Assembly: GCF_009936275.1 (NCBI RefSeq)
Contig: NZ_AP019797.1
Span: 1,417,501-1,481,500, forward strand
Origin: Rhodothermus marinus
GTDB lineage: Bacteria; Bacteroidota; Rhodothermia; Rhodothermales; Rhodothermaceae
Length of the DNA: 64,000 bases
Reading direction: 5' to 3'
Shown here: piece by piece, positions 25,609 through 40,131 of the stretch
Layout: every line of letters starts with the position of its first letter
Numbering within the stretch: position 1 is the stretch's first letter
Position numbers and translations under genes: made by a program
The notes under the pieces: generated by a model
Told to the model about the DNA's origin: nothing
Database searches by the model: none
What the model saw: only the letters and a program-made list of their open reading frames with translations

Positions 25609-26676
25609 ATGCCCATGACGGATTTCCCCCCGCTTCAGAACGATCTGTTGCTCCGGGCGGCGCGGCGCGAGCCGGTCGAGCGCACGCCCGTCTGGATCAT
25701 GCGGCAGGCCGGCCGCTACCTTCCCGAGTACCGGGCACTTCGAGCCGACGAGGCCTTTTTCGACGTGGTGCGCACGCCGGAGCTGGCCACCGAGGTGACG
25801 CTGCAGCCGCTGCGGCGCTTTCCGCTCGATGCGGCCATTATTTTTTCCGACATCCTGGTGGTGCCGCAGGCGCTGGGGCTGCGCGTGGAGATGATCCCGG
25901 GCCGCGGGCCGTACTTTCCCGATCCGCTGCGCACGGTTGAAGACCTGCGGCGGCTCCGGCGGCCGGATGTGCGCGAGGCGCTGCGCTATATGCTGGAAGC
26001 GATCACGATGACGCGGAAGGCCCTGGCCGGTCGCGTGCCGCTCATCGGCTTCTGCGGAGCGCCCTGGACGCTCATGGCCTACATGGTGGAGGGCGGAGGC
26101 AGCAAGACGTTCGCCCGCGCCAAGGGCTGGCTCTACCGGCAGCCCGAGGCCAGCCACCGACTGCTTTCGCTGCTGACCGACGTGCTCGTGGAGTTTCTGA
26201 TCGCACAGATCGACGCGGGGGCGCAGGTGGTGCAGGTGTTCGATTCCTGGGCCGGCGTGTTGAGCCCGGACCTGTTTCACACCTTTGCGCTTCCGTACCT
26301 GCGCCGCATCGGCGGGGAGGTCGGGAAGGCCCGGCCCGAGGTGCCGCGCATCGTGTTCGCCCGGGGTGCCCATGCATCGCTGGCCGAACTGGCCGAGGCA
26401 GGTTACGACGTGGTGGGGCTCGACTGGACGATCGACCCGCGCCAGGCCCGACAGCTGACGGGCGGACGTGTGGCCCTGCAGGGCAATCTGGATCCCTGCG
26501 CGCTGTATGCCGAGCCCGAGACGATTCGCCGGCTGACGCACCGGATGCTCGAAGCCTTCGGGCCGCGTGGGCACATCGCCAACCTGGGGCACGGCCTGCA
26601 CCCCGACCACAACCCCGATCACGTGCGCGCCTTCGTAGAAGCCGTGCACGACTACGTACCGGTGGCTTCGGAATGA
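25609..26676 (+). CDS. hemE: Uroporphyrinogen decarboxylase
   Basis: A 355-residue enzyme that converts uroporphyrinogen III to coproporphyrinogen III in heme synthesis. The signature [13 protein letters not shown] lies near the N-terminus (about 24-36), and [20 protein letters not shown] and [11 protein letters not shown] are also family blocks. The length is normal. The start is the ATG at 25609 or the one two codons later (25615); ribosome binding sequence does not decide. hemF, hemH and hemL lie within the next 15 kb but not in one operon. Confidence 0.95.
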
Positions 26677-26721
26677 GTTATGCCCGCAATGAATCCTGAC
26701 GCTAATTGAGCTGTTTTTTGA

Positions 26722-28313
<1,592 letters not shown>

Positions 28314-28314
28314 C

Positions 28315-28386
28315 CAGGTCATCATCGTAATTTGGCAGCTGTCGCAGCGTGTCCGGCAACTCCTGGCAGAGCTTTCGGGCGAGTAG
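28315..28386 (+). pseudogene. Probable HEPN (DUF86) C-terminal remnant
   Basis: Just beyond the left end of the TnpB element, an open frame without its own start reads VIIVIWQLSQRVRQLLAEL and stops at 28384-28386. This resembles the last helix of HEPN-domain toxin partners (pattern V-D-I-V-W...LP.L...L), which normally follow an MNT gene like the one at 26722-27081. About 85-90 N-terminal residues would be missing. The match is short and made by eye, so the call is tentative. It ends one base from the convergent histidine kinase stop. Confidence 0.4.
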
Positions 28387-30327
28387 CTACGAAGCAGCAG
28401 AAGAGACGGGCAGCACGATCGTAAACGTGCTGCCCTGGCCGGGGGTGCTGTCGACTTCGATCCGGCCGCCCAGGCGCTCGACGATCTGCTTCGTGATGGC
28501 CAGGCCCAGCCCGCTCGACGGTTCGTCGCCGGTGGGTTGCGCCGAAAGACGCTGAAAATACCCGAACAAGCGCGCACGATCGGCTTCGGTCAGGCCGGGG
28601 CCTTCGTCTCGGACACTCAGCCGCACCGCGTCGGTATGGCGGGCGAGTTGTACTGTGATACGCTTGCCGAAAGGCGTGAACTTGAGCGCATTGGTGAGCA
28701 GGTTCGTCAGGGCCCGCCGCAGTTGCTCGGGATCGGTCTCCACCACGCAGGATCCTGCAGACGGTGCCAGGAAAACGAGTTGCTGCTGCTTACGGGTGGC
28801 GCGGTCCTGATGGAAGTGGACGGTTTCGGCGACCAGTTCGACCAGATCCACGCGCATGCGCCGGAAGGTAACCCGCCCGCTTTCCAGTGCCGAGGCGGTG
28901 ATCAGCTGCTCGATGGTGCCCAGCATGCGCTGACTGGCTGCTTCGGCCAGTTCGAGCAGTTCCCGGTGGGGGCTGTCGGGCGGAAGCTCCTCGCGTACGG
29001 TCTGGATCAATCCCTGCACGCTGCTCAGTGGATTGCGCAGGTCATGGGCGGTAGCGCCCAGCAGGTGGGTTTTCAGCGCATTGATTTCCTGAAGGTGCCG
29101 CTCGGCGGCCTCGGCCCGGGTGCGGTCCAGCAGGGCCTGCGCGCGTTCGCGCGTCAGCAGGCGGATGCGGGCGCCCAGTGCCAGCGACAGGAGCAGCGCC
29201 TCGGCAGCCGAACCGAACTGGGCGCTGTAGCGGGTAACCGGCACGACGGGCAACAGGCCCCACCAGGTGGCCACGTACACTACAAGCCCGAGCACGAAGG
29301 GCAAGGCAGCCAGCAGGTAATAGCGGGCCAGGGGATGGTCGCGGCGATGGGCCTGCCAGCCGGCCCCGAAGCCGAGCAGCGCCGCCATCAGCGCGGCCAG
29401 GGCGGCAAACTGTTCGGCCAGCACCCAGTAGCCGAGCAGGCCCAGCAGAGCGGGGAGCGTCAGCAGGGCCATCAACAGGTGCAGCAGCCGATGGTAGATT
29501 GGCGCATAGCGCGACGTTTCCAGAAAGGAGACCGTGAAGCACAGGTAACCGAGCCCGGCCCCCAGCAGCAGGTAAAAGTCGATCGCGTGGGGATAGGCGC
29601 GCTCGGAGGACCAGAACAGATCGGCCAGGTAGCCCGAGGCCGAAAGCCAGAACAGCGCCAGCAGGGCCGTCAGCATTACGTAGTAGAGATAGCTTCGCTC
29701 GCGCACCACCAGAAACAGAAACAGATTGTAGAGCGCCATGGCCAGCAGCAGCCCCGCCAGCAGACCCTGCACCACGCGATGGGAACGTTCGGCCGCCAGG
29801 GCTTCGTCGATCGGATGCAGCCGGATCGGCACCGGAACGCCCGGCGAGACGTAGCTGACGAAGTTGTGCCGGACGCGCAGGTACAGGTGATGCGGCACGC
29901 CCGGCGTAAGGTGCAGCGAAAGATAGGGCGGCCGGAAGGTGGCAATGTCGCGCGCTCGGGGCGGTACCAGAAAGCCCGTGCGCAGCGTGTCGCGAGGCGG
30001 CAGACGGCCGTCCACCAGCACGTAGCCGGTCACCTGATCGGCCGGAATCTCGACCAGCCAGTGCGAGAGCCCCGGCGCGGCGACCAGCTTCAGCCGGAGC
30101 CAGTACGTTCCCGGTGGTAGATCGGGCGTCAGGCGAGCCGGAGAGCGCCAGGCGTCGGACTGAAGGACCTGAGCAAGTGTCAGCGTATCGGTGGGATCGA
30201 TAAGCAGCGCCGCATAAGGCTCTGTCACCGATACGATCCCGGCATGTTCAAGGCGAAGAACAGCAGGCTGTGCCGCATTACCTGAGGGCAACAGGATAAG
30301 GAACAACAGAATGGAGCCGGGCGGCAT
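28387..30327 (-). CDS. 7TMR-DISM sensor histidine kinase
   Basis: A 646-residue membrane kinase. After a signal-like N-terminus, residues about 25-170 form a periplasmic 7TMR-DISM extracellular domain, which often binds carbohydrate or other small ligands. Seven hydrophobic segments follow (about 180-385). HisKA has phospho-acceptor His428 in ATAHDLRNPLSS. The HATPase domain has the N box LLTNALKFTP, G1 VRDEGPGL and G2 SSGLGLAI. No response regulator is adjacent. Its stop is next to the HEPN remnant on the other strand, and it diverges from the pseudouridine synthase gene. Confidence 0.88.
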   Translation of the reverse strand: MPPGSILLFLILLPSGNAAQPAVLRLEHAGIVSVTEPYAALLIDPTDTLTLAQVLQSDAWRSPARLTPDLPPGTYWLRLKLVAAPGLSHWLVEIPADQVTGYVLVDGRLPPRDTLRTGFLVPPRARDIATFRPPYLSLHLTPGVPHHLYLRVRHNFVSYVSPGVPVPIRLHPIDEALAAERSHRVVQGLLAGLLLAMALYNLFLFLVVRERSYLYYVMLTALLALFWLSASGYLADLFWSSERAYPHAIDFYLLLGAGLGYLCFTVSFLETSRYAPIYHRLLHLLMALLTLPALLGLLGYWVLAEQFAALAALMAALLGFGAGWQAHRRDHPLARYYLLAALPFVLGLVVYVATWWGLLPVVPVTRYSAQFGSAAEALLLSLALGARIRLLTRERAQALLDRTRAEAAERHLQEINALKTHLLGATAHDLRNPLSSVQGLIQTVREELPPDSPHRELLELAEAASQRMLGTIEQLITASALESGRVTFRRMRVDLVELVAETVHFHQDRATRKQQQLVFLAPSAGSCVVETDPEQLRRALTNLLTNALKFTPFGKRITVQLARHTDAVRLSVRDEGPGLTEADRARLFGYFQRLSAQPTGDEPSSGLGLAITKQIVERLGGRIEVDSTPGQGSTFTIVLPVSSAAS

Positions 30328-30445
30328 TTACGAACATCTCCCGCCAGGGTACCGGCTTTCGTCCGCGAATACACCTGCTACCCGCAACCGAAATGGAAGG
30401 TTCTCGTTGATGTGTGTCGAACGAAACTTCGGAAGGGAAGACGCC

Positions 30446-31174
30446 ATGCTGGAGGTAGCGGAACTCCCTGTGCTGTACCTGGACAACCACCTGCTGGTCA
30501 TCAACAAGCCCTCGGGATTGCGCAGTCAGGGCGATCGGAGCGGGGCGCCGACCGTGCTCTCGCTGGGCAAGGCGCTGATCAAGGAGCGCTTCAACAAGCC
30601 CGGGAACGTCTATCTGGGACTGGTCCACCGGCTGGATGCGCCGGTGTCGGGCGTGATGGTGCTGGCCCGTACGTCCAAGGCGGCCGCCCGGCTGATGCAG
30701 CAGTTTCGGGAACGCACGGTGGAAAAGGTGTACCTGGCGCTGGTGGAAGGCGAGCTGGAAGGCAGCGGCACCTGGGAGGATTTCATGGCGCCGGCCCGCG
30801 ACCACATGCGCCTGGTGCCGGAAGACCATCCGTTCGGGAAACGAGCCGTTCTGCACTGGCAAGCGCTCATGACGCGCAACGGGCTGACGCTCATGCGCCT
30901 GGTGCCCGAAACCGGCCGCAAGCATCAGATCCGGGTGCAGCTGGCCTTCCGGGGCTATCCCATTCTTGGCGACCGGCGCTACCGGGCTCGGCGCTGGCTG
31001 GCGCCCGGACAGATGGCGCTGCACGCCTGGAAACTGGCACTCACGCATCCGACCCGCCGCGAGCGCATGCAGTGGACGGCGCCCGTGCCGCCGTTCTGGG
31101 ATGAAGCCTTCCGGCTGCGCGTCGATCGACTGCTGGCCTATCTGGAATCCGCCGGTCCCGAGGGCATCCGGTAA
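30446..31174 (+). CDS. RluA-family pseudouridine synthase
   Basis: A 242-residue enzyme from the ATG at 30446, chosen because GGAAGGGAAG lies just upstream; longer in-frame starts lack a ribosome binding site. The catalytic Asp is in LVHRLDAPVSGVMVLAR, and VNK-like (VINKPSG), PETGRKHQIRVQLA and GYPILGDRRY blocks are all RluA-type. There is no N-terminal S4 domain, as in RluA/TruC and unlike RluC/RluD. It isomerises uridine in rRNA or tRNA; the site is not predictable. The last 37 bases overlap the convergent small gene at 31138-31449. Confidence 0.88.
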   Translation: MLEVAELPVLYLDNHLLVINKPSGLRSQGDRSGAPTVLSLGKALIKERFNKPGNVYLGLVHRLDAPVSGVMVLARTSKAAARLMQQFRERTVEKVYLALVEGELEGSGTWEDFMAPARDHMRLVPEDHPFGKRAVLHWQALMTRNGLTLMRLVPETGRKHQIRVQLAFRGYPILGDRRYRARRWLAPGQMALHAWKLALTHPTRRERMQWTAPVPPFWDEAFRLRVDRLLAYLESAGPEGIR

Positions 31175-31449
31175 CCGTGCACTTCCTCGGCGCAGACGGC
31201 CGGGGCCGGTACGACGCAGACCTCTTCGTCGCGGAACGGATCGACCACGATGGGAATGTGCTGATAGGTCTCGAAGCGGCCGGCTCCGCGCTGAAACTGC
31301 CGCCCGATCGCCTTGCACAGCCGCCGATAGGCCGTACGGCCTACCAGAATGTAGCGGGCTTCGTGCCCGGCTTCCTGAAGTTGCCGTAGGCTGTCATGGA
31401 TGAACGGCAGCATTTCGTCGTCATTCGGCGTATATTCCAGAACCGTCAT
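31138..31449 (-). CDS. Small hypothetical protein
   Basis: A 103-residue protein of unknown function. I use the ATG at 31447-31449; it has AGGTTGGGG upstream, and a TTG three codons earlier is the alternative. The sequence has a charged N-terminal helix (NDDEMLPFIHDSLRQLQ), then ILVGRTAYRRLCKAIG and a strand-rich end with IPIVVDPFRDEEVCVVP, suggesting a compact alpha/beta fold. No signal or membrane segment is seen. It lies between and on the strand opposite to the pseudouridine synthase and hemF genes. It may be real because the codon choice and length are plausible. Confidence 0.5.
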   Translation of the reverse strand: MTVLEYTPNDDEMLPFIHDSLRQLQEAGHEARYILVGRTAYRRLCKAIGRQFQRGAGRFETYQHIPIVVDPFRDEEVCVVPAPAVCAEEVHGYRMPSGPADSR

Positions 31450-31471
31450 AAGCCCCAACCTGTGTTGATCG

Positions 31472-32455
31472 ATGATGATGGATGATCACGCCCGTGTTGA
31501 CCGGTTGCGCAAAGAGCCGCGCACCGATATTCCGATGGCGCATCGCGTGCAGCGCTTTGTCGAAGCACTGCAGCATCACATCTGCAAGGCCATAGAAGAC
31601 GCCGACGGTGCCGCACAGTTTCGGCGAGATCCCTGGAATTATCGCGAAGGAGGCGGCGGACTGACCTGCGTGCTGGAAAACGGTGCTGTCTTTGAAAAGG
31701 CGGGCGTCAACACGTCGGCCATCTGGGGAAAACTCACAGAGCGAGCGGCCCGGGCCATCGGCGTGCATCCCGGCCCGTTTTTCGCCACGGGCCTTTCGCT
31801 GGTCATTCATCCCCGTTCGCCCTACGTCCCCAGTGTCCACGCCAACTTTCGCTACTTTGCGCTGGGTGAAGACCTGTTTCATCCGGAGGATCAGTGGTTC
31901 GGTGGTGGCGCCGACCTGACGCCCTACTATCCTTTTCTGGAAGACGTGCAGCACTTCCACCGCGTCTGGAAAGAGGTGTGTGATCGGCATCCGGGCGTGG
32001 CCGATTATGCGCGCTTCAAGGCGGCCTGCGACGCGTATTTCTACCTGCCCCACCGAGGCGAAATGCGCGGCGTAGGCGGCATTTTCTACGACTATCTGCG
32101 CGACGATCCTGAAGGCGCGTTTTTCTTCACCCGGGAGGCCGGCCGTGCCTTCCTGCGTTCATACCTGCCCATCGTCGAGCGCCGCAAGGACATCCCCTAC
32201 GGCGAGCGCGAGCGGCACTTTCAGCTGTTGCGACGTGGCCGTTATGTGGAGTTCAATCTGATCTACGACCGGGGGACCCGCTTCGGACTGGAGTCGAACG
32301 GCCGCACCGAAAGCATCCTGATGAGTCTACCGCCCGAGGCGCGCTGGCAGTACGACTGGCGTCCGGTGCCCGGATCGCCCGAAGAGGCGGCGCTCTGGTT
32401 CTTCCAACCGCGCGACTGGCTGGCGCTGACCGAGGCCGACGTGCCGCAGCCGTAG
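31472..32455 (+). CDS. hemF: Oxygen-dependent coproporphyrinogen III oxidase
   Basis: A 327-residue enzyme that oxidatively decarboxylates coproporphyrinogen III to protoporphyrinogen IX, using O2. Family signatures are VFEKAGVNTSAIWG, SLVIHPRSPYVPSVHANFRYF, GGGADLTPYYPF and LIYDRGTRFGLESNGR. Length matches the family (about 300-330). Three tandem ATGs start the frame; the first at 31472 is used here. It overlaps nothing and has 22 bases to the small divergent gene. It fits with aerobic heme synthesis in this organism. Confidence 0.95.
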   Translation: MMMDDHARVDRLRKEPRTDIPMAHRVQRFVEALQHHICKAIEDADGAAQFRRDPWNYREGGGGLTCVLENGAVFEKAGVNTSAIWGKLTERAARAIGVHPGPFFATGLSLVIHPRSPYVPSVHANFRYFALGEDLFHPEDQWFGGGADLTPYYPFLEDVQHFHRVWKEVCDRHPGVADYARFKAACDAYFYLPHRGEMRGVGGIFYDYLRDDPEGAFFFTREAGRAFLRSYLPIVERRKDIPYGERERHFQLLRRGRYVEFNLIYDRGTRFGLESNGRTESILMSLPPEARWQYDWRPVPGSPEEAALWFFQPRDWLALTEADVPQP

Positions 32456-32567
32456 CTTGTCTGTATTTTGAATTCTCTGCACGCAGCGCTGGCTATTAAC
32501 AATCTGGCTACAATTTGCTAACTTATGGCCGGTTCTGACAGGCCGGAGGGTTGTCCTCATAACGTTC

Positions 32568-33503
32568 ATGACAGGTACGACGGAAGCGCGGCGCGCCTGG
32601 CGTACGCCGGAGATTGAAGAGCCGACCAACCGGTATTTCATTCATCCGCTGAGCTGGGCGCTGGTGCAGCGGCTGGCGCGCTGGGGCGTGCATCCCAACA
32701 CGGTCTCGCTGGTGGGGCTGGCCCTTGGAGCTGGTGCTGCGTTCGCCTATTACCACTACACCTCCTGGCAGGCCTGCGTGCTGGGCTTTCTGCTGATGAT
32801 CGGCTGGCACGTCATGGACGGTGCCGACGGCCAGCTGGCCCGCCTCACCGGCCGCACTTCCGAGATCGGCAAGGTACTCGACGGCCTGTGCGACCACGGC
32901 ACATTTGTGCTGATCTACATCAGCCTGGCGCTGGCGACCTATCCGTCGGCGGGCTGGATCGCCTGGGTGCTGGCCGTACTGGCCGGCGTTAGCCATATCG
33001 TGCAGGCCAGCACCTATGAGTTTCAGCGGCAATCCTACGACTACTGGGTTCACGACAAGCAGAGCGCGCGGCCGGTCACACCCGAAGCCTTTCGTGCGAC
33101 GCTGGCCGAAAAACGCGGACTGGCTCGATGGATGGGCCAGCTTTACCTGGTCTACCTACGCGTGCAGTATGGCGTGGGCGCGGCTGATCTGGAGCTGATG
33201 CGGTTGCTGGAAGAGGCGCTTGAGAAATTTTCATATCCCCAGAAGGCGCGCCAGATGTACCGCTACGTGCACCGGCCGCTGGTGCGGCGCTGGGCGATTA
33301 TGAGCTCGAACTACCGCACGCTGGCCATTTTTATCGCCTGCCTGTACGGCAGACCGCTGGCTTTTTTTATGTTTGAACTGGTGGTGCTCAACCTGATCTT
33401 TCTGCTGCTGGTCGTGCAACTGCGGATTCGGAACCGGCGCTTCCGATTGTGGTTGCGCCGCCATCTGGAAGGAAAGCCGGCAGATGCCTGGCTGCAACGG
33501 TAA
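32568..33503 (+). CDS. CDP-alcohol phosphatidyltransferase family (inositol-lipid or CDP-inositol transferase)
   Basis: A 311-residue membrane protein with about six hydrophobic segments. The full CDP-OH-P motif is present: D84, D87, G88, A91, R92, G101, D105 and D109 within the run that begins MDGADGQLARLTG. This family joins a CDP-activated group to an alcohol. It is followed directly by inositol-1-phosphate synthase and CTP:inositol-1-phosphate cytidylyltransferase, so CDP-inositol is the likely donor and a glycerolipid alcohol or inositol-1-phosphate the acceptor. In R. marinus CDP-inositol has been described as the head-group donor for inositol phospholipids. The specificity here is by context. 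Confidence 0.8.
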   Translation: MTGTTEARRAWRTPEIEEPTNRYFIHPLSWALVQRLARWGVHPNTVSLVGLALGAGAAFAYYHYTSWQACVLGFLLMIGWHVMDGADGQLARLTGRTSEIGKVLDGLCDHGTFVLIYISLALATYPSAGWIAWVLAVLAGVSHIVQASTYEFQRQSYDYWVHDKQSARPVTPEAFRATLAEKRGLARWMGQLYLVYLRVQYGVGAADLELMRLLEEALEKFSYPQKARQMYRYVHRPLVRRWAIMSSNYRTLAIFIACLYGRPLAFFMFELVVLNLIFLLLVVQLRIRNRRFRLWLRRHLEGKPADAWLQR

Positions 33504-33533
33504 TTCGTTCACCATCCTGAAGAGGAGCCATCC

Positions 33534-34862
33534 ATGAGCGAAGCTGTTTCGATCGCGCCCCCGGAGGGCAAGTTGCTGGTGCTCACGCCGGGGCTGGGCG
33601 CCGTGGCGACCACGTTCATTGCGGGGGTCGAGGCGGTCCGGCAGGGACGGGCTCGACCCTATGGATCGCTGACGCAGATGCAGACGATCCGGCTGGGGCG
33701 TCGCTCGGCCGGACGCAACCCGCTGATCAAGGAGTTCCTGCCGCTGGCCGAACTCGACGACCTGGTCTTCGGCGCCTGGGACATCTTCCCGGACGATGCC
33801 TACGAGGCGGCCATGCGCGCCCAGGTCCTTGAAGAGCGCGACCTGAAGCCGCTCGAAGACTTCCTGCGCACGATCCGGCCCATGCCGGCCGCCTTCGACC
33901 GCCAGTACGTGCGGCGGCTCGACGGGCCCAACGTCAAAAAGGCCCGCACGAAGAAGGAGCTGGCCGAGATGCTCCGCGAGGACATCCGGCGCACGCTTGA
34001 GGAGACCGGCGCCAGCCGGGCCGTCATGATCTGGTGCGGCTCGACCGAGGTGTACACGCGCCCGTCGGACTGCCACCGCTCGATCGAAGCCTTCGAGGCG
34101 GGCCTGGAAGCCAACGATCCGTCGATCACGCCCTCGCAGCTCTATGCCTACGCGGCCATCATGGAGGGCGTACCCTACGCGAACGGCGCCCCGAACCTGT
34201 CGGCCGACGTGCCTGCTCTTGAGCAACTGGCTGAGGAGAAGGGTGTGCCCATTGCCGGCAAGGACTTCAAGACCGGCCAGACCATGCTCAAAACGGTGGT
34301 GGCGCCGGCCTTCAAGATGCGCATGCTGGGCGTGCGCGGCTGGTTCTCGACAAACATCCTGGGTAACCGCGACGGCGAGGTGCTCGACGACATCGACAGC
34401 TTCCGCGCCAAGGAGGTGACCAAGTCGGGCGTGCTCGACACGATCCTGCAGCCCGATCTCTACCCGGAACTCTACGGCAACCTCTACCACAAGGTGCGGA
34501 TCAACTTCTACCCGCCGCGCGGTGATGCCAAGGAGAGCTGGGACAACATCGACATTTTCGGCTGGATGGGCTACCCGATGCAGATCAAGATCAACTTCCT
34601 GTGTCGGGACTCCATCCTGGCCGCGCCGATCGTGCTGGACCTGGCGCTGTTCCTGGACCTGGCCGCCCGGGCCGGGCTCAAGGGCATTCAGGAGTGGCTC
34701 TCGTTCTACTTCAAGAGCCCGCACGTGCAGGAAGGCCACGTACCCGAGCACGACCTGTTCATCCAGCACATCCGGCTGAAAAACACGCTGCGCGTGCTGG
34801 GCGGCGAGTCGCCCATCACGCACCTATCCGAAGAGTTTGAGCTGTACGAGAACCTGAGATGA
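33534..34862 (+). CDS. ino1: Myo-inositol-1-phosphate synthase
   Basis: A 442-residue NAD-dependent enzyme that turns glucose-6-phosphate into inositol-1-phosphate. The N-terminal LVLTPGLGAVATTFIAGVEA is the dinucleotide-binding region; NGAPNLSADVPAL, GKDFKTGQTMLKTV and SWDNIDIFGWMGYPMQIKI are characteristic synthase blocks. A good ribosome binding site (GAGGAG) precedes the ATG at 33534. Its stop overlaps the next start (ATGA at 34859-34862), which implies coupled translation with the cytidylyltransferase. Confidence 0.93.
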   Translation: MSEAVSIAPPEGKLLVLTPGLGAVATTFIAGVEAVRQGRARPYGSLTQMQTIRLGRRSAGRNPLIKEFLPLAELDDLVFGAWDIFPDDAYEAAMRAQVLEERDLKPLEDFLRTIRPMPAAFDRQYVRRLDGPNVKKARTKKELAEMLREDIRRTLEETGASRAVMIWCGSTEVYTRPSDCHRSIEAFEAGLEANDPSITPSQLYAYAAIMEGVPYANGAPNLSADVPALEQLAEEKGVPIAGKDFKTGQTMLKTVVAPAFKMRMLGVRGWFSTNILGNRDGEVLDDIDSFRAKEVTKSGVLDTILQPDLYPELYGNLYHKVRINFYPPRGDAKESWDNIDIFGWMGYPMQIKINFLCRDSILAAPIVLDLALFLDLAARAGLKGIQEWLSFYFKSPHVQEGHVPEHDLFIQHIRLKNTLRVLGGESPITHLSEEFELYENLR

Positions 34863-35617
34863 TTCAGAATGGAGCAGGACCCCGGACGGGCATCGTGCTG
34901 GCGGCCGGGTTGGGTTCGCGGCTGGCCGGTGCCCGCCCGGGGTTTCAATTGAAACCCCTGACCCCGGTGGCTGGCATGCCGCTGATCCTCCGCACGCTGC
35001 GAAGCGTAGCGCTGGCCGGCTGCCGGGAAGTGGTCATCGTCGTGGGCTACCACGGCGAGGAGGTGCAGGAGGCGGTCCGCCGCCACTACCACGGGCCGCT
35101 CCGGGTGCACTTCGCCCACAACCCGCACTACGAACTCCAGAACGGCCTGTCGGTGCTGGCCGCGCGGCCATACGTGCGTGAGGCCCCTTTTCTGCTCACC
35201 ATGGCCGATCACGTGCTGGGGGACGAACTCATGGCGCTGGTGCGCACGCATCGGCCCCCGAAAGACGGCGCTACGCTACTGGTGGACTACCGCATCGACC
35301 AGATCTTCGACCTGGATGATGCCACCAAGGTGCGCGTTGAGGACGGCTGGATCGTGGACATCGGCAAGCATCTGACCGACTTCAACGCCATCGACACGGG
35401 TGTCTTCGTCTGCACCTTCGCCTTGATGGACGCGCTGGAGGCCGTCTATCGGGAGCAGGGCGATGCGTCGCTCTCCGACGGCGTACGCCGACTGGCCCGC
35501 GCCCGCCGCATGGCCGCGCTCGATATCGGCGACGGCTTCTGGCAGGACGTCGACACGCCCGAAATGCTCGCCTACGCCGAGCGCCGCCTGCTGGAAATGG
35601 CGCGATCCGAGTCCTGA
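34859..35617 (+). CDS. CTP:inositol-1-phosphate cytidylyltransferase (IPCT)
   Basis: A 252-residue nucleotidyltransferase that would make CDP-inositol. The N-terminal GIVLAAGLGSRLA and QLKPLTPV are the nucleotide-binding signature of the NTP-transferase fold. The stretch DATKVRVEDGWIVDIGK, then AIDTGVFVC, and WQDVDTPEMLAYA match the IPCT half of the archaeal bifunctional di-myo-inositol-phosphate enzymes. It starts four bases inside the synthase stop, and CDP-alcohol transferase precedes both, so the three are one operon. It ends at a strong terminator (35620-35657). Confidence 0.88.
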   Translation: MIQNGAGPRTGIVLAAGLGSRLAGARPGFQLKPLTPVAGMPLILRTLRSVALAGCREVVIVVGYHGEEVQEAVRRHYHGPLRVHFAHNPHYELQNGLSVLAARPYVREAPFLLTMADHVLGDELMALVRTHRPPKDGATLLVDYRIDQIFDLDDATKVRVEDGWIVDIGKHLTDFNAIDTGVFVCTFALMDALEAVYREQGDASLSDGVRRLARARRMAALDIGDGFWQDVDTPEMLAYAERRLLEMARSES

Positions 35618-35619
35618 AC

Positions 35620-35657
35620 AAAAACGGGGCAAGGCGTGTTGGCCTTGCCCCGTTTTT
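35620..35657. terminator. Bidirectional hairpin terminator
   Basis: A 16-bp inverted repeat, AAAAACGGGGCAAGGC at 35620-35635 and its complement ending in GTTTTT at 35642-35657, with a six-base loop. A and T runs lie on both arms, so it can end the inositol operon from the left and pckA from the right. Confidence 0.9.
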
Positions 35658-35675
35658 CTGCTACGCCATTTCCGG

Positions 35676-37271
<1,596 letters not shown>

Positions 37272-37479
37272 TTTTGATATGAATTCAAAGCAATGTCCCG
37301 GTTTTCTCGTTATGCTTAAGCATAGAAAAAGCGCTCCCGGTCCGTGTTAAACCTCTGTTTAAGAATTTCTGAGATTCTATAAGATCGCCGCCCTTGTGCG
37401 AAACTTCAAGCAGAAAGCGGAACTGACAATCGCCGCCCGGCTCTAAACCCGAAGTCGCCAAACAGCAGAAGGTGAGGTC
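37272..37479. promoter_or_regulatory. pckA-hemH divergent control region with palindromes
   Basis: The 208-base space between the divergent pckA and hemH genes is AT-rich and carries two inverted repeats: the perfect 14-mer TATGCTTAAGCATA at 37311-37324, and TTAAAC-N4-GTTTAA at 37347-37362. A third, weaker one (AGAAT...ATTCT) lies just after it. These are candidate operators. No regulator is identifiable, and neither promoter can be drawn with confidence. Confidence 0.45.
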
Positions 37480-38811
37480 ATGACGCCCCGGCAGTTTCTG
37501 AAGCACTACCAGTACGATGAGCGGCTGGTCCGCGGAGATTATTTTCCATCGGCCCCGCTTGCAGTCAATCCCGGCGAAACGGTCGGAGTAGTATTGCTCA
37601 ATCTGGGTGGCCCTGAGCGTGTGGAGGATGTGGAGCCCTTCCTCTACAACCTGTTCATGGACCCGGCCATCATCGACATCCCGCTGAAGGGCATTGCCCG
37701 TCACTGGCTCTGCCGCCTGATCGCCCGGCTGCGTGCAAAGAAGGTGGGCAAAGACTACGAGATGATCGGGGGCGGCTCGCCGCTGAACCGGCTGACGCGG
37801 GAGCAGGCGCAGGCGCTGGAACGGTTGCTGAACCGACGCTTCGGGCAGCCGGCGGGGGTGCATTTCCGCACCTACATTGCCATGCGCTACTGGCATCCGT
37901 TCAGCGAGGAGGCGGCCGCGCAGATGCAGGCCGAAGGGGTGGACAAGGTGGTGCTGCTTCCGCTCTATCCACAGTATTCCAAGACGACCACCGGCTCGTC
38001 GCTGCTCTACTGGTGGACGCTGGAGCAGGTGGGCGAAATTCCGCGCTGGCCTACGACCTACGTCTACGAGTACGCGGCGCATCCCAAGTACATTCAGGCG
38101 ATCAGCGAGCGGATCGACGAGGCGCTGCAGCGCTTTCCGAAGAACGTGCGCTCCGAGGTGCATCTGGTCTTCAGTGCGCACGGCACGCCGCTCATTGAAA
38201 TGAAGGAGCGGCGCGATCCCTACTGCTGCCTGATCCACTCCACAGTGGACCGGGTAATGGCCTACCGGAAGCACGACCTGCCCTACCACGTGTCGTTCCA
38301 GAGCAAGGTGGGGCCAGGTGAGTGGCTGACGCCGAGCACGCCCGACAAGCTGGCCGAGCTGGCGCAGCAGGGCGTGCGGGCCGTGCTGATGGTGCCGGTG
38401 GCGTTCGTGACCGACCATATTGAAACCTCCTTCGAACTGGACATCGAAGTGCGGGAAGAGGCCGAGCAGTTCGGCATTACCCATTACGAAGTGATGCCGG
38501 CACTGAACTGCCACCCGCTGTTCATCGAGGCGCTGGCCGAGGTGACCGTGGCGCAGCTCCGGCTGCCGGTGCCGTCCGCAACGGTCGGTGCGTCGGGAGA
38601 CGGGGCGCCGGCGACGACGCCTTACCCGATTCGTCCGCTTGACGAACTGCCCCGCTACCATCCGCGCGTGCGTAAGACGCGTTGCCACCAGTGCGAGCAC
38701 ATCACCGAGGCGCGGTGCTGGATTCCCTCAGAGTGCGAGCCGGCGCCTGAGAACGCCGAAAGCACGGCACCGCCGAAGCCTTCCGTTCATTCCAAACGGC
38801 CTGCCTCGTAA
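37480..38811 (+). CDS. hemH: Ferrochelatase with cysteine-rich C-terminal tail
   Basis: A 443-residue enzyme inserting Fe2+ into protoporphyrin. It has the family blocks VVLLNLGGPERVEDVEPFL, MRYWHPF, LLPLYPQYSKTTTGSS and LVFSAHGTPL, with ferrochelatase-type metal/porphyrin residues. An N-terminal extension of about 30 residues precedes the core, and a C-terminal tail of about 70 residues holds four cysteines in CHQCEHITEARCWIPSEC, which could bind zinc or an Fe-S cluster. A good ribosome binding site precedes the ATG. hemL starts six bases after the stop. Confidence 0.93.
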   Translation: MTPRQFLKHYQYDERLVRGDYFPSAPLAVNPGETVGVVLLNLGGPERVEDVEPFLYNLFMDPAIIDIPLKGIARHWLCRLIARLRAKKVGKDYEMIGGGSPLNRLTREQAQALERLLNRRFGQPAGVHFRTYIAMRYWHPFSEEAAAQMQAEGVDKVVLLPLYPQYSKTTTGSSLLYWWTLEQVGEIPRWPTTYVYEYAAHPKYIQAISERIDEALQRFPKNVRSEVHLVFSAHGTPLIEMKERRDPYCCLIHSTVDRVMAYRKHDLPYHVSFQSKVGPGEWLTPSTPDKLAELAQQGVRAVLMVPVAFVTDHIETSFELDIEVREEAEQFGITHYEVMPALNCHPLFIEALAEVTVAQLRLPVPSATVGASGDGAPATTPYPIRPLDELPRYHPRVRKTRCHQCEHITEARCWIPSECEPAPENAESTAPPKPSVHSKRPAS

Positions 38812-38817
38812 GGAGCG

Positions 38818-40131
<1,314 letters not shown>

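Follow-up and report, generated by a model that had tools for sequence, protein, structure and literature searches.

The window, the 64,000-nt stretch of the Rhodothermus marinus chromosome analyzed here, belongs to a 3.43 Mb single-contig genome and carries at positions 32568–35617 three adjacent genes (below, the trio) assigned to a CDP-alcohol phosphotransferase (T), a myo-inositol-1-phosphate synthase (MIPS), and an inositol-1-phosphate cytidylyltransferase (IPCT). The original prediction, made from the DNA sequence, saw here a set for CDP-inositol-dependent synthesis of inositol phospholipids. The features of the locus are as follows.

32568..33503, + strand: T, CDP-alcohol phosphotransferase, 311 amino acids (aa), candidate CDP-inositol:dialkylglycerol (or diacylglycerol) inositolphosphotransferase; PF01066, 46.7 bits at a cut-off of 22
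32817..32894, + strand: CDP-alcohol phosphotransferase signature of T, D84–D109 (D1xxD2G..AR..G..D3xxxD4), from an alignment of 37 rows
33522..33527, + strand: GAGGAG upstream of MIPS, resembling a ribosome-binding site and putatively acting as one; read from the sequence
33534..34862, + strand: MIPS, 442 aa; PF07994, 311 bits (cut-off 25), and PF01658, 109 bits (cut-off 27)
34859..34862, + strand: ATGA, overlapping stop of MIPS and start of IPCT; read from the sequence
34859..35617, + strand: IPCT, CTP:inositol-1-phosphate cytidylyltransferase, 252 aa; NTP_transf_3, 55 bits, along with NF041135, PDB matches, and the tree

T, MIPS, and IPCT are confirmed as a real neighbouring set: the predicted gene identities, gene order, and ATGA coupling are all borne out by Pfam and by the sequence, with a spacing of 30 nt between T and MIPS. 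Both the NAD-binding and the Inos-1-P_synth domains of MIPS exceed the Pfam cut-offs, and its best PDB match (E 5.6e-164; second-best 1.1e-58) is 7nwr, a Bacteroides enzyme.

For IPCT, the best NCBIfam model is the bifunctional IPCT/DIPP-synthase enzyme NF041135 (DIPP, di-myo-inositol phosphate phosphate), with 132.7 bits against 74 for the runner-up; the cut-off of this model, 580 bits, applies to the two-domain protein. The best PDB matches are the Archaeoglobus fulgidus IPCT, 2xme (E 6e-24) and 4mnd, followed by 4jd0, named as the Thermotoga maritima IPCT in PMC12275187. A 40-row tree unites the window IPCT, its relatives, and both PDB IPCTs in a clade of 29 rows with support 99/96, outside which fall 11 other nucleotidyltransferases of the order; the exact place of the two PDB rows within the tree is unsure, since both are long branches. 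Hence, by NCBIfam, PDB, and tree, IPCT groups with the solved IPCTs and not with other sugar nucleotidyltransferases, the grouping that the original prediction had named as counter-evidence. All 26 rows of the IPCT alignment have R21, K32, and D117, which line up with an Arg, a Lys, and an Asp in 4jd0. PMC12275187 gives R16, K26, and D112 as the critical residues; by our own count, the numbering agrees for Arg and Lys, and the aligned Asp is three positions off D112, hence the identity of D117 with the published Asp is unsure. The IPCT of a Rhodothermus metagenome-assembled genome (MAG; L061) shows 97% identity to that of the window. Fusions of IPCT with a CDP-alcohol phosphotransferase, like the archaeal bifunctional enzyme, are seen in MAGs labelled Gemmatimonadetes, Latescibacterota, and Zixiibacteriota (L088:2299-3747, L089:5000-6445, and L091:5995-7452; domains checked for L091).

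The signature of T is complete, with D84, D87, G88, A91, R92, G101, D105, and D109 all present; seven of these residues are invariant in 37 of 37 rows of the T alignment, and the fourth Asp, D4 (D109), is kept in 22. This Asp is the likely catalytic base, as stated in PMC4634129. The nearest solved relatives of T, all weak single-sequence matches, are AF2299 (4o6m, E 1.2e-6), the DIPP synthase domain of 4mnd (1.7e-4), and cholinephosphotransferase 1 (2e-4), the two best eukaryotic CPT1/CEPT1-type structures giving E 2e-4 to 6e-4. The alignment of the T profile with PDB spans only the first ~160 residues of T, the acceptor side lying outside.

Co-occurrence of the three genes was analyzed in a sample of 60 genomes of the order. 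An IPCT orthologue (E ≤1.2e-77; next match 3.5e-12) is present in 19 genomes, and in all 19 MIPS lies directly upstream of it. At E ≤2.3e-33, with weaker matches (at least 2.7e-8) taken as other CDP-alcohol transferases, T is found in 12 genomes and a divergent T-like gene in three more (G016, G023, G027); all 15 bear IPCT, and the T or T-like gene adjoins MIPS in nine and lies elsewhere in six. IPCT without T is seen in four genomes (G011, G014, G033, G035). All three genes are adjacent in 7/7 Rhodothermus genomes, and by coordinates the order T–MIPS–IPCT also holds in two genomes of another family (G070, G122). Since MIPS precedes IPCT in 19/19 genomes and T adjoins MIPS in 9/15, the order of the trio is more than chance. 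Neighbours were clustered for 46 loci, left from 50 fetched after removal of four repeats. IPCT is present in 40 of them; 7 of these 40 have no close MIPS in the stretch covered, and among the remaining 33 pairs of MIPS and IPCT, 14 overlap by ATGA or GTGA. MIPS–IPCT pairs occur in Balneolota, other Rhodothermota, Myxococcota, and further MAGs, so IPCT is not confined to synthesis of hyperthermophile solutes, and its earlier description as mainly an enzyme of that pathway is too narrow.

We also scored 394 genomes of the phylum, taking the best few candidates per genome (at most five for T, six for IPCT, and four for the TagF-like family described below), so that absences are not exhaustive. 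An IPCT orthologue (E ≤1e-90, a cut set after the list had been inspected) is present in 29 genomes. At 1e-20 there are 42 hits; those left out are nine weak and four intermediate ones, the latter comprising three with long open frames suggestive of fusions (G199, G189, G375) and G402, where T is adjacent.

Taken together, the trio very probably forms a complete route to inositol phospholipids by activation of the head group. MIPS would convert glucose-6-phosphate to inositol-1-phosphate; IPCT would join it with CTP to give CDP-inositol; and T, a membrane enzyme, would pass the inositol phosphate of CDP-inositol on to a neutral glycerolipid (reportedly dialkylglycerol in Jorge 2015), releasing CMP. 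This logic would be akin to that of the eukaryotic Kennedy route to phosphatidylcholine and phosphatidylethanolamine, and opposite to that of the route from CDP-diacylglycerol and inositol or inositol phosphate; the reversal, proposed in the original prediction, is supported. We infer CDP-inositol as the donor of T from the genes that keep company with T and from the work of Jorge, Borges and Santos (2015), who reportedly followed in R. marinus assays the transfer of inositol phosphate from CDP-inositol; the sequence of T alone is not decisive. As the trio matches the published Rhodothermus route from CDP-inositol and dialkylglycerol, its chemistry is already known for the genus. The paper, which the original prediction had cited, does exist: it is reference 34 of PMC9246714, which cites it for CDP-inositol as the precursor of dialkylether glycerophosphoinositol lipids.

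The observations that weigh against this route concern the family of T, its acceptor, and its wider relatives. Among NCBIfam models, T scores best with archaetidylinositol phosphate synthase, which follows the opposite logic (56.6 bits at a cut-off of 180), and the phosphatidylinositol phosphate (PIP) synthase NF045883 comes second (36.7 bits at a cut-off of 170). T might accordingly be a PIP-synthase-like enzyme using CDP-diacylglycerol and the inositol-1-phosphate made by MIPS, with IPCT serving some other purpose, which we consider improbable. Both scores are far below the cut-offs, and hence do not place T in either family. PIP synthases hold inositol phosphate through two arginines, according to PMC4634129, and T has two conserved ones, R154 (30/37 rows, Lys in the other seven) and R250 (30/37 rows), which might be their counterparts. 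However, T at the above threshold never occurs without IPCT in the 60 genomes of the order, and a PIP synthase would not need IPCT. The published assays, too, reportedly show CDP-inositol as the donor. Still less probable, and indeed very doubtful, is the production of di-myo-inositol phosphate (DIP), a heat-protecting solute, by the trio, in which case T would be a DIPP synthase with inositol-1-phosphate as the acceptor. IPCT belongs to the DIP-pathway type, and T does match both 4mnd and NF041135 (for the latter, 29.3 of 580 bits); but T is closer to AF2299, cholinephosphotransferase 1 is about as near to it as DIPP synthase, and the MIPS–IPCT pair is also found in Balneolaceae and Myxococcota, which are not known as thermophiles. 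The abstract of Jorge 2015 is said to report that DIP is absent from R. marinus.

Other counter-evidence to the head-group-activation route relates to the acceptor. CDP-alcohol phosphotransferases that act on lipid acceptors usually carry three or four additional membrane helices, as described in PMC4634129; the hydropathy profile of T shows four hydrophobic segments (family mean five), the last at residues 265–283 and none past residue 283. None of three families tried provides a convincing ether-lipid enzyme in the genus. Geranylgeranylglyceryl phosphate (GGGP) synthase (PcrB, PF01884) passes the cut-off in 20 of the 60 genomes of the order and in 0/7 of the Rhodothermus ones. PF09989, a domain of PlsA/GER-type enzymes, is found in 0/60 genomes, including 0/7 of Rhodothermus. 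PF02913, a part of AGPS, occurs once in each of the seven Rhodothermus genomes, within open frames 979 to 999 aa long; the protein of the window's own genome has 973 aa, with FAD and Fe-S parts recognized by eye, and is unlike AGPS. Therefore, either another enzyme makes the ether bond, or the acceptor is not, or not fully, an ether lipid, and the ether acceptor of the original prediction finds no genomic backing. The product in Jorge 2015 reportedly has a mass of 810 Da, with ether bonds and dialkylglycerol as the acceptor. This mass cannot differentiate between dialkyl 34:0 (calculated 810.599), ether-ester 33:0 (810.562), and diacyl 32:0 (810.526) species, as all of them fit the nominal value. 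An ordinary diacylglycerol or a mixed ether-ester instead of dialkylglycerol as the acceptor of T is thus a possibility to be kept in view, agreeing with both the lack of a convincing candidate from the three families and the non-discriminating mass, but we consider it rather unlikely: the ether bonds are reportedly part of the published result, and the ether-forming enzyme may come from some other, even a still unrecognized, family. PMC9246714 likewise cites the products as dialkylether lipids. A sphingolipid acceptor was rejected, as dihydroceramide phosphoinositols have by calculation an odd nominal mass, a misfit to the reported neutral mass of 810.

Hits to the T profile (E ≤1e-12) are seen in 50 of the 394 phylum genomes, and 29 of these 50 have no IPCT hit at 1e-20 among the candidates scored; similarly, no cytidylyltransferase is seen near the T relatives L120 and L125 in the short stretch examined. 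D4 is replaced by Gly in 15 of 37 alignment rows, namely all L119–L134 rows, from other Bacteroidota, and is kept as Asp in T of the window. As these D4-Gly enzymes and the IPCT-less relatives may use other head groups, the T family should not be equated with the use of CDP-inositol. Some of the relatives lie in distinct contexts: L119 and L127 are near an NTP_transferase (PF00483 in L127), a PF03706 protein, and a HAD-like frame (HAD recognized by eye), and L132 is near a CTP_transf_like protein (PF01467); such proximity to other nucleotidyl- or cytidylyltransferases speaks for the proposed head-group activation. In L120 (150-3424) and similar loci, T relatives stand beside a class III aminotransferase and a GFO/IDH/MocA oxidoreductase; a different, amino-bearing head group is suggested for relatives of this type.

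In L068, L086, L101, and L104, the gene immediately preceding T is of the PF03706 type, and the membrane protein of this type in the window's own genome (L202:2304-3386, that is C1:2448803-2449882) is 44–52% identical to these four. As a dedicated inositol-lipid flippase it was rejected: it occurs in 48 of the 60 genomes of the order irrespective of T, hence its link to T is not specific.

In relatives, the MIPS–IPCT pair has another neighbour. Clustering of neighbours reveals a TagF-like family of ~390 aa, whose gene precedes IPCT on its strand in 12 of the 46 loci:

L067 (3363-4553), L064, L071, L074, L075, L079, L082, L084, L092, L097, L100, L110: TagF-like gene

It adjoins MIPS in nine of the 12; in L071, L074, and L092 other genes or ~3.5 kb intervene. 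All nine members tested match PF04464, CDP-glycerol:poly(glycerophosphate) glycerophosphotransferase, at E ≤0.1 (best 3.7e-12); the match of L067 reaches 24.5 bits at a cut-off of 22.1, over about 100 residues only. Sequence and profile searches of PDB with the family yield no TagF structure, the sole weak profile match being a putative serine hydrolase (E 0.017). WHG and NFSS-type motifs, which are TagF motifs, are present. Polysaccharide-flippase-type neighbours (PF01943/PF13440) are seen in the four TagF loci scanned (L067, L071, L097, L100), and L100 has a glycosyltransferase nearby as well.

The TagF-like gene is found in 5 of the 60 genomes of the order, that is, in the four IPCT genomes without T and in G026, which has both, and in 0/7 Rhodothermus genomes, the window's included. 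Among the 394 phylum genomes it occurs in 20, all within the 29 with an IPCT orthologue, and the remaining nine have T or T-like genes. The gene is upstream of IPCT on the same strand, 175 to 8825 nt away, in 19 of the 20, and on another contig in one; in 7 of the 19 the gap just fits MIPS. The overlap with IPCT would arise by chance with p about 5e-27, a value to be read with the relatedness of the genomes (16 of the 20 from one family, f18, and the other four from four families) and with an IPCT cut chosen after the list had been seen. In a tree of MIPS and IPCT, T-adjacent loci form two separate groups, a point in favour of the proposed lipid route; T-adjacency requires two changes and TagF-adjacency five, with two of each forced by well-supported branches, and gains are indistinguishable from losses on this tree.

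The confinement of all 20 TagF-like phylum genomes to the 29 with IPCT suggests a second use of CDP-inositol in bacteria. Judged from sequence, it is an evenly balanced question whether MIPS and IPCT of Balneolota, other Rhodothermota, and some Myxococcota feed a TagF-like transferase that decorates a surface glycan with inositol phosphate or polymerizes inositol phosphate into a chain resembling teichoic acid. In that case, T and the TagF-like protein would be alternative consumers beside the MIPS–IPCT pair in different lineages, with Rhodothermus of the window having the lipid version. Alternative use of CDP-inositol by the two would be the simplest reading. A strict either/or relation was rejected, as G026, one of the five TagF genomes of the order, has both; besides, 5 of the 20 phylum TagF genomes (G114, G137, G188, G227, G291) also have a weaker T-like hit. 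No TagF-type use of CDP-inositol is described in the titles and abstract openings listed by searches of an open-access collection, subscription papers being mostly uncovered, and we know of no activity of a TagF-like protein with CDP-inositol.

By Pfam, the genes flanking the trio, hemF (31472-32455, + strand) and PEP carboxykinase (35676-37271, − strand), are unrelated to it. Haem-synthesis genes surround the trio at 25609-40131, with hemF identified by Pfam and hemE, hemH, and hemL judged by eye from translations. A 382-aa protein at 27064-28212 (− strand) is by eye similar to TnpB/OrfB transposon proteins and is adjoined by a small nucleotidyltransferase-like open reading frame at 26722-27081.

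The trio defines in compact genetic form a route to inositol lipids that starts from the head group, and thereby provides a genomic marker for it. It poses two puzzles: the source of dialkylglycerol in a bacterium where no recognized ether-lipid enzyme was found, and the way in which a CDP-alcohol transferase this short, which seems to lack the additional helices of CEPT1, takes a lipid acceptor. Should the TagF-like association hold, inositol phosphate in surface polymers of whole bacterial families would be new chemistry. Both new points, on the acceptor and on the TagF-like alternative seen in relatives, should be regarded as leads short of proof.

Among known systems, the closest is the R. 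marinus pathway of Jorge 2015, from the same genus and reportedly with IPCT, a candidate CDP-alcohol transferase, and CDP-inositol as the donor; the window trio probably consists of the same genes. The cluster of Bacteroides vulgatus and Prevotella (Heaver 2022, PMC9246714) similarly comprises MIPS, an NTP transferase, and a CDP-alcohol transferase, and is proposed to act via CDP-inositol (PMC9246714; review PMC10191378); it differs in having a HAD hydrolase, of which there is none beside the window trio, and is resembled by description by the L119 and L127 loci, where the fourth signature Asp is Gly. The IPCT and DIPP synthase of hyperthermophiles (A. fulgidus 4mnd, 2xme; T. maritima 4jd0) share with the trio the IPCT family and the CDP-alcohol phosphotransferase superfamily, whereas the window genes are separate and the acceptor here is probably a lipid and not inositol-1-phosphate. 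The actinobacterial PIP synthase has the same CDP-alcohol phosphotransferase domain and signature as T, but a donor opposite to that proposed for T; T is far below the cut-off of this family (36.7 of 170 bits). Finally, eukaryotic CPT1/CEPT1 appear to differ from T, which by hydropathy shows no hydrophobic segment beyond residue 283, by the three or four extra membrane helices typical of such enzymes according to PMC4634129, and share with the proposed reaction of T the logic of a CDP-activated head group transferred to a diradylglycerol.

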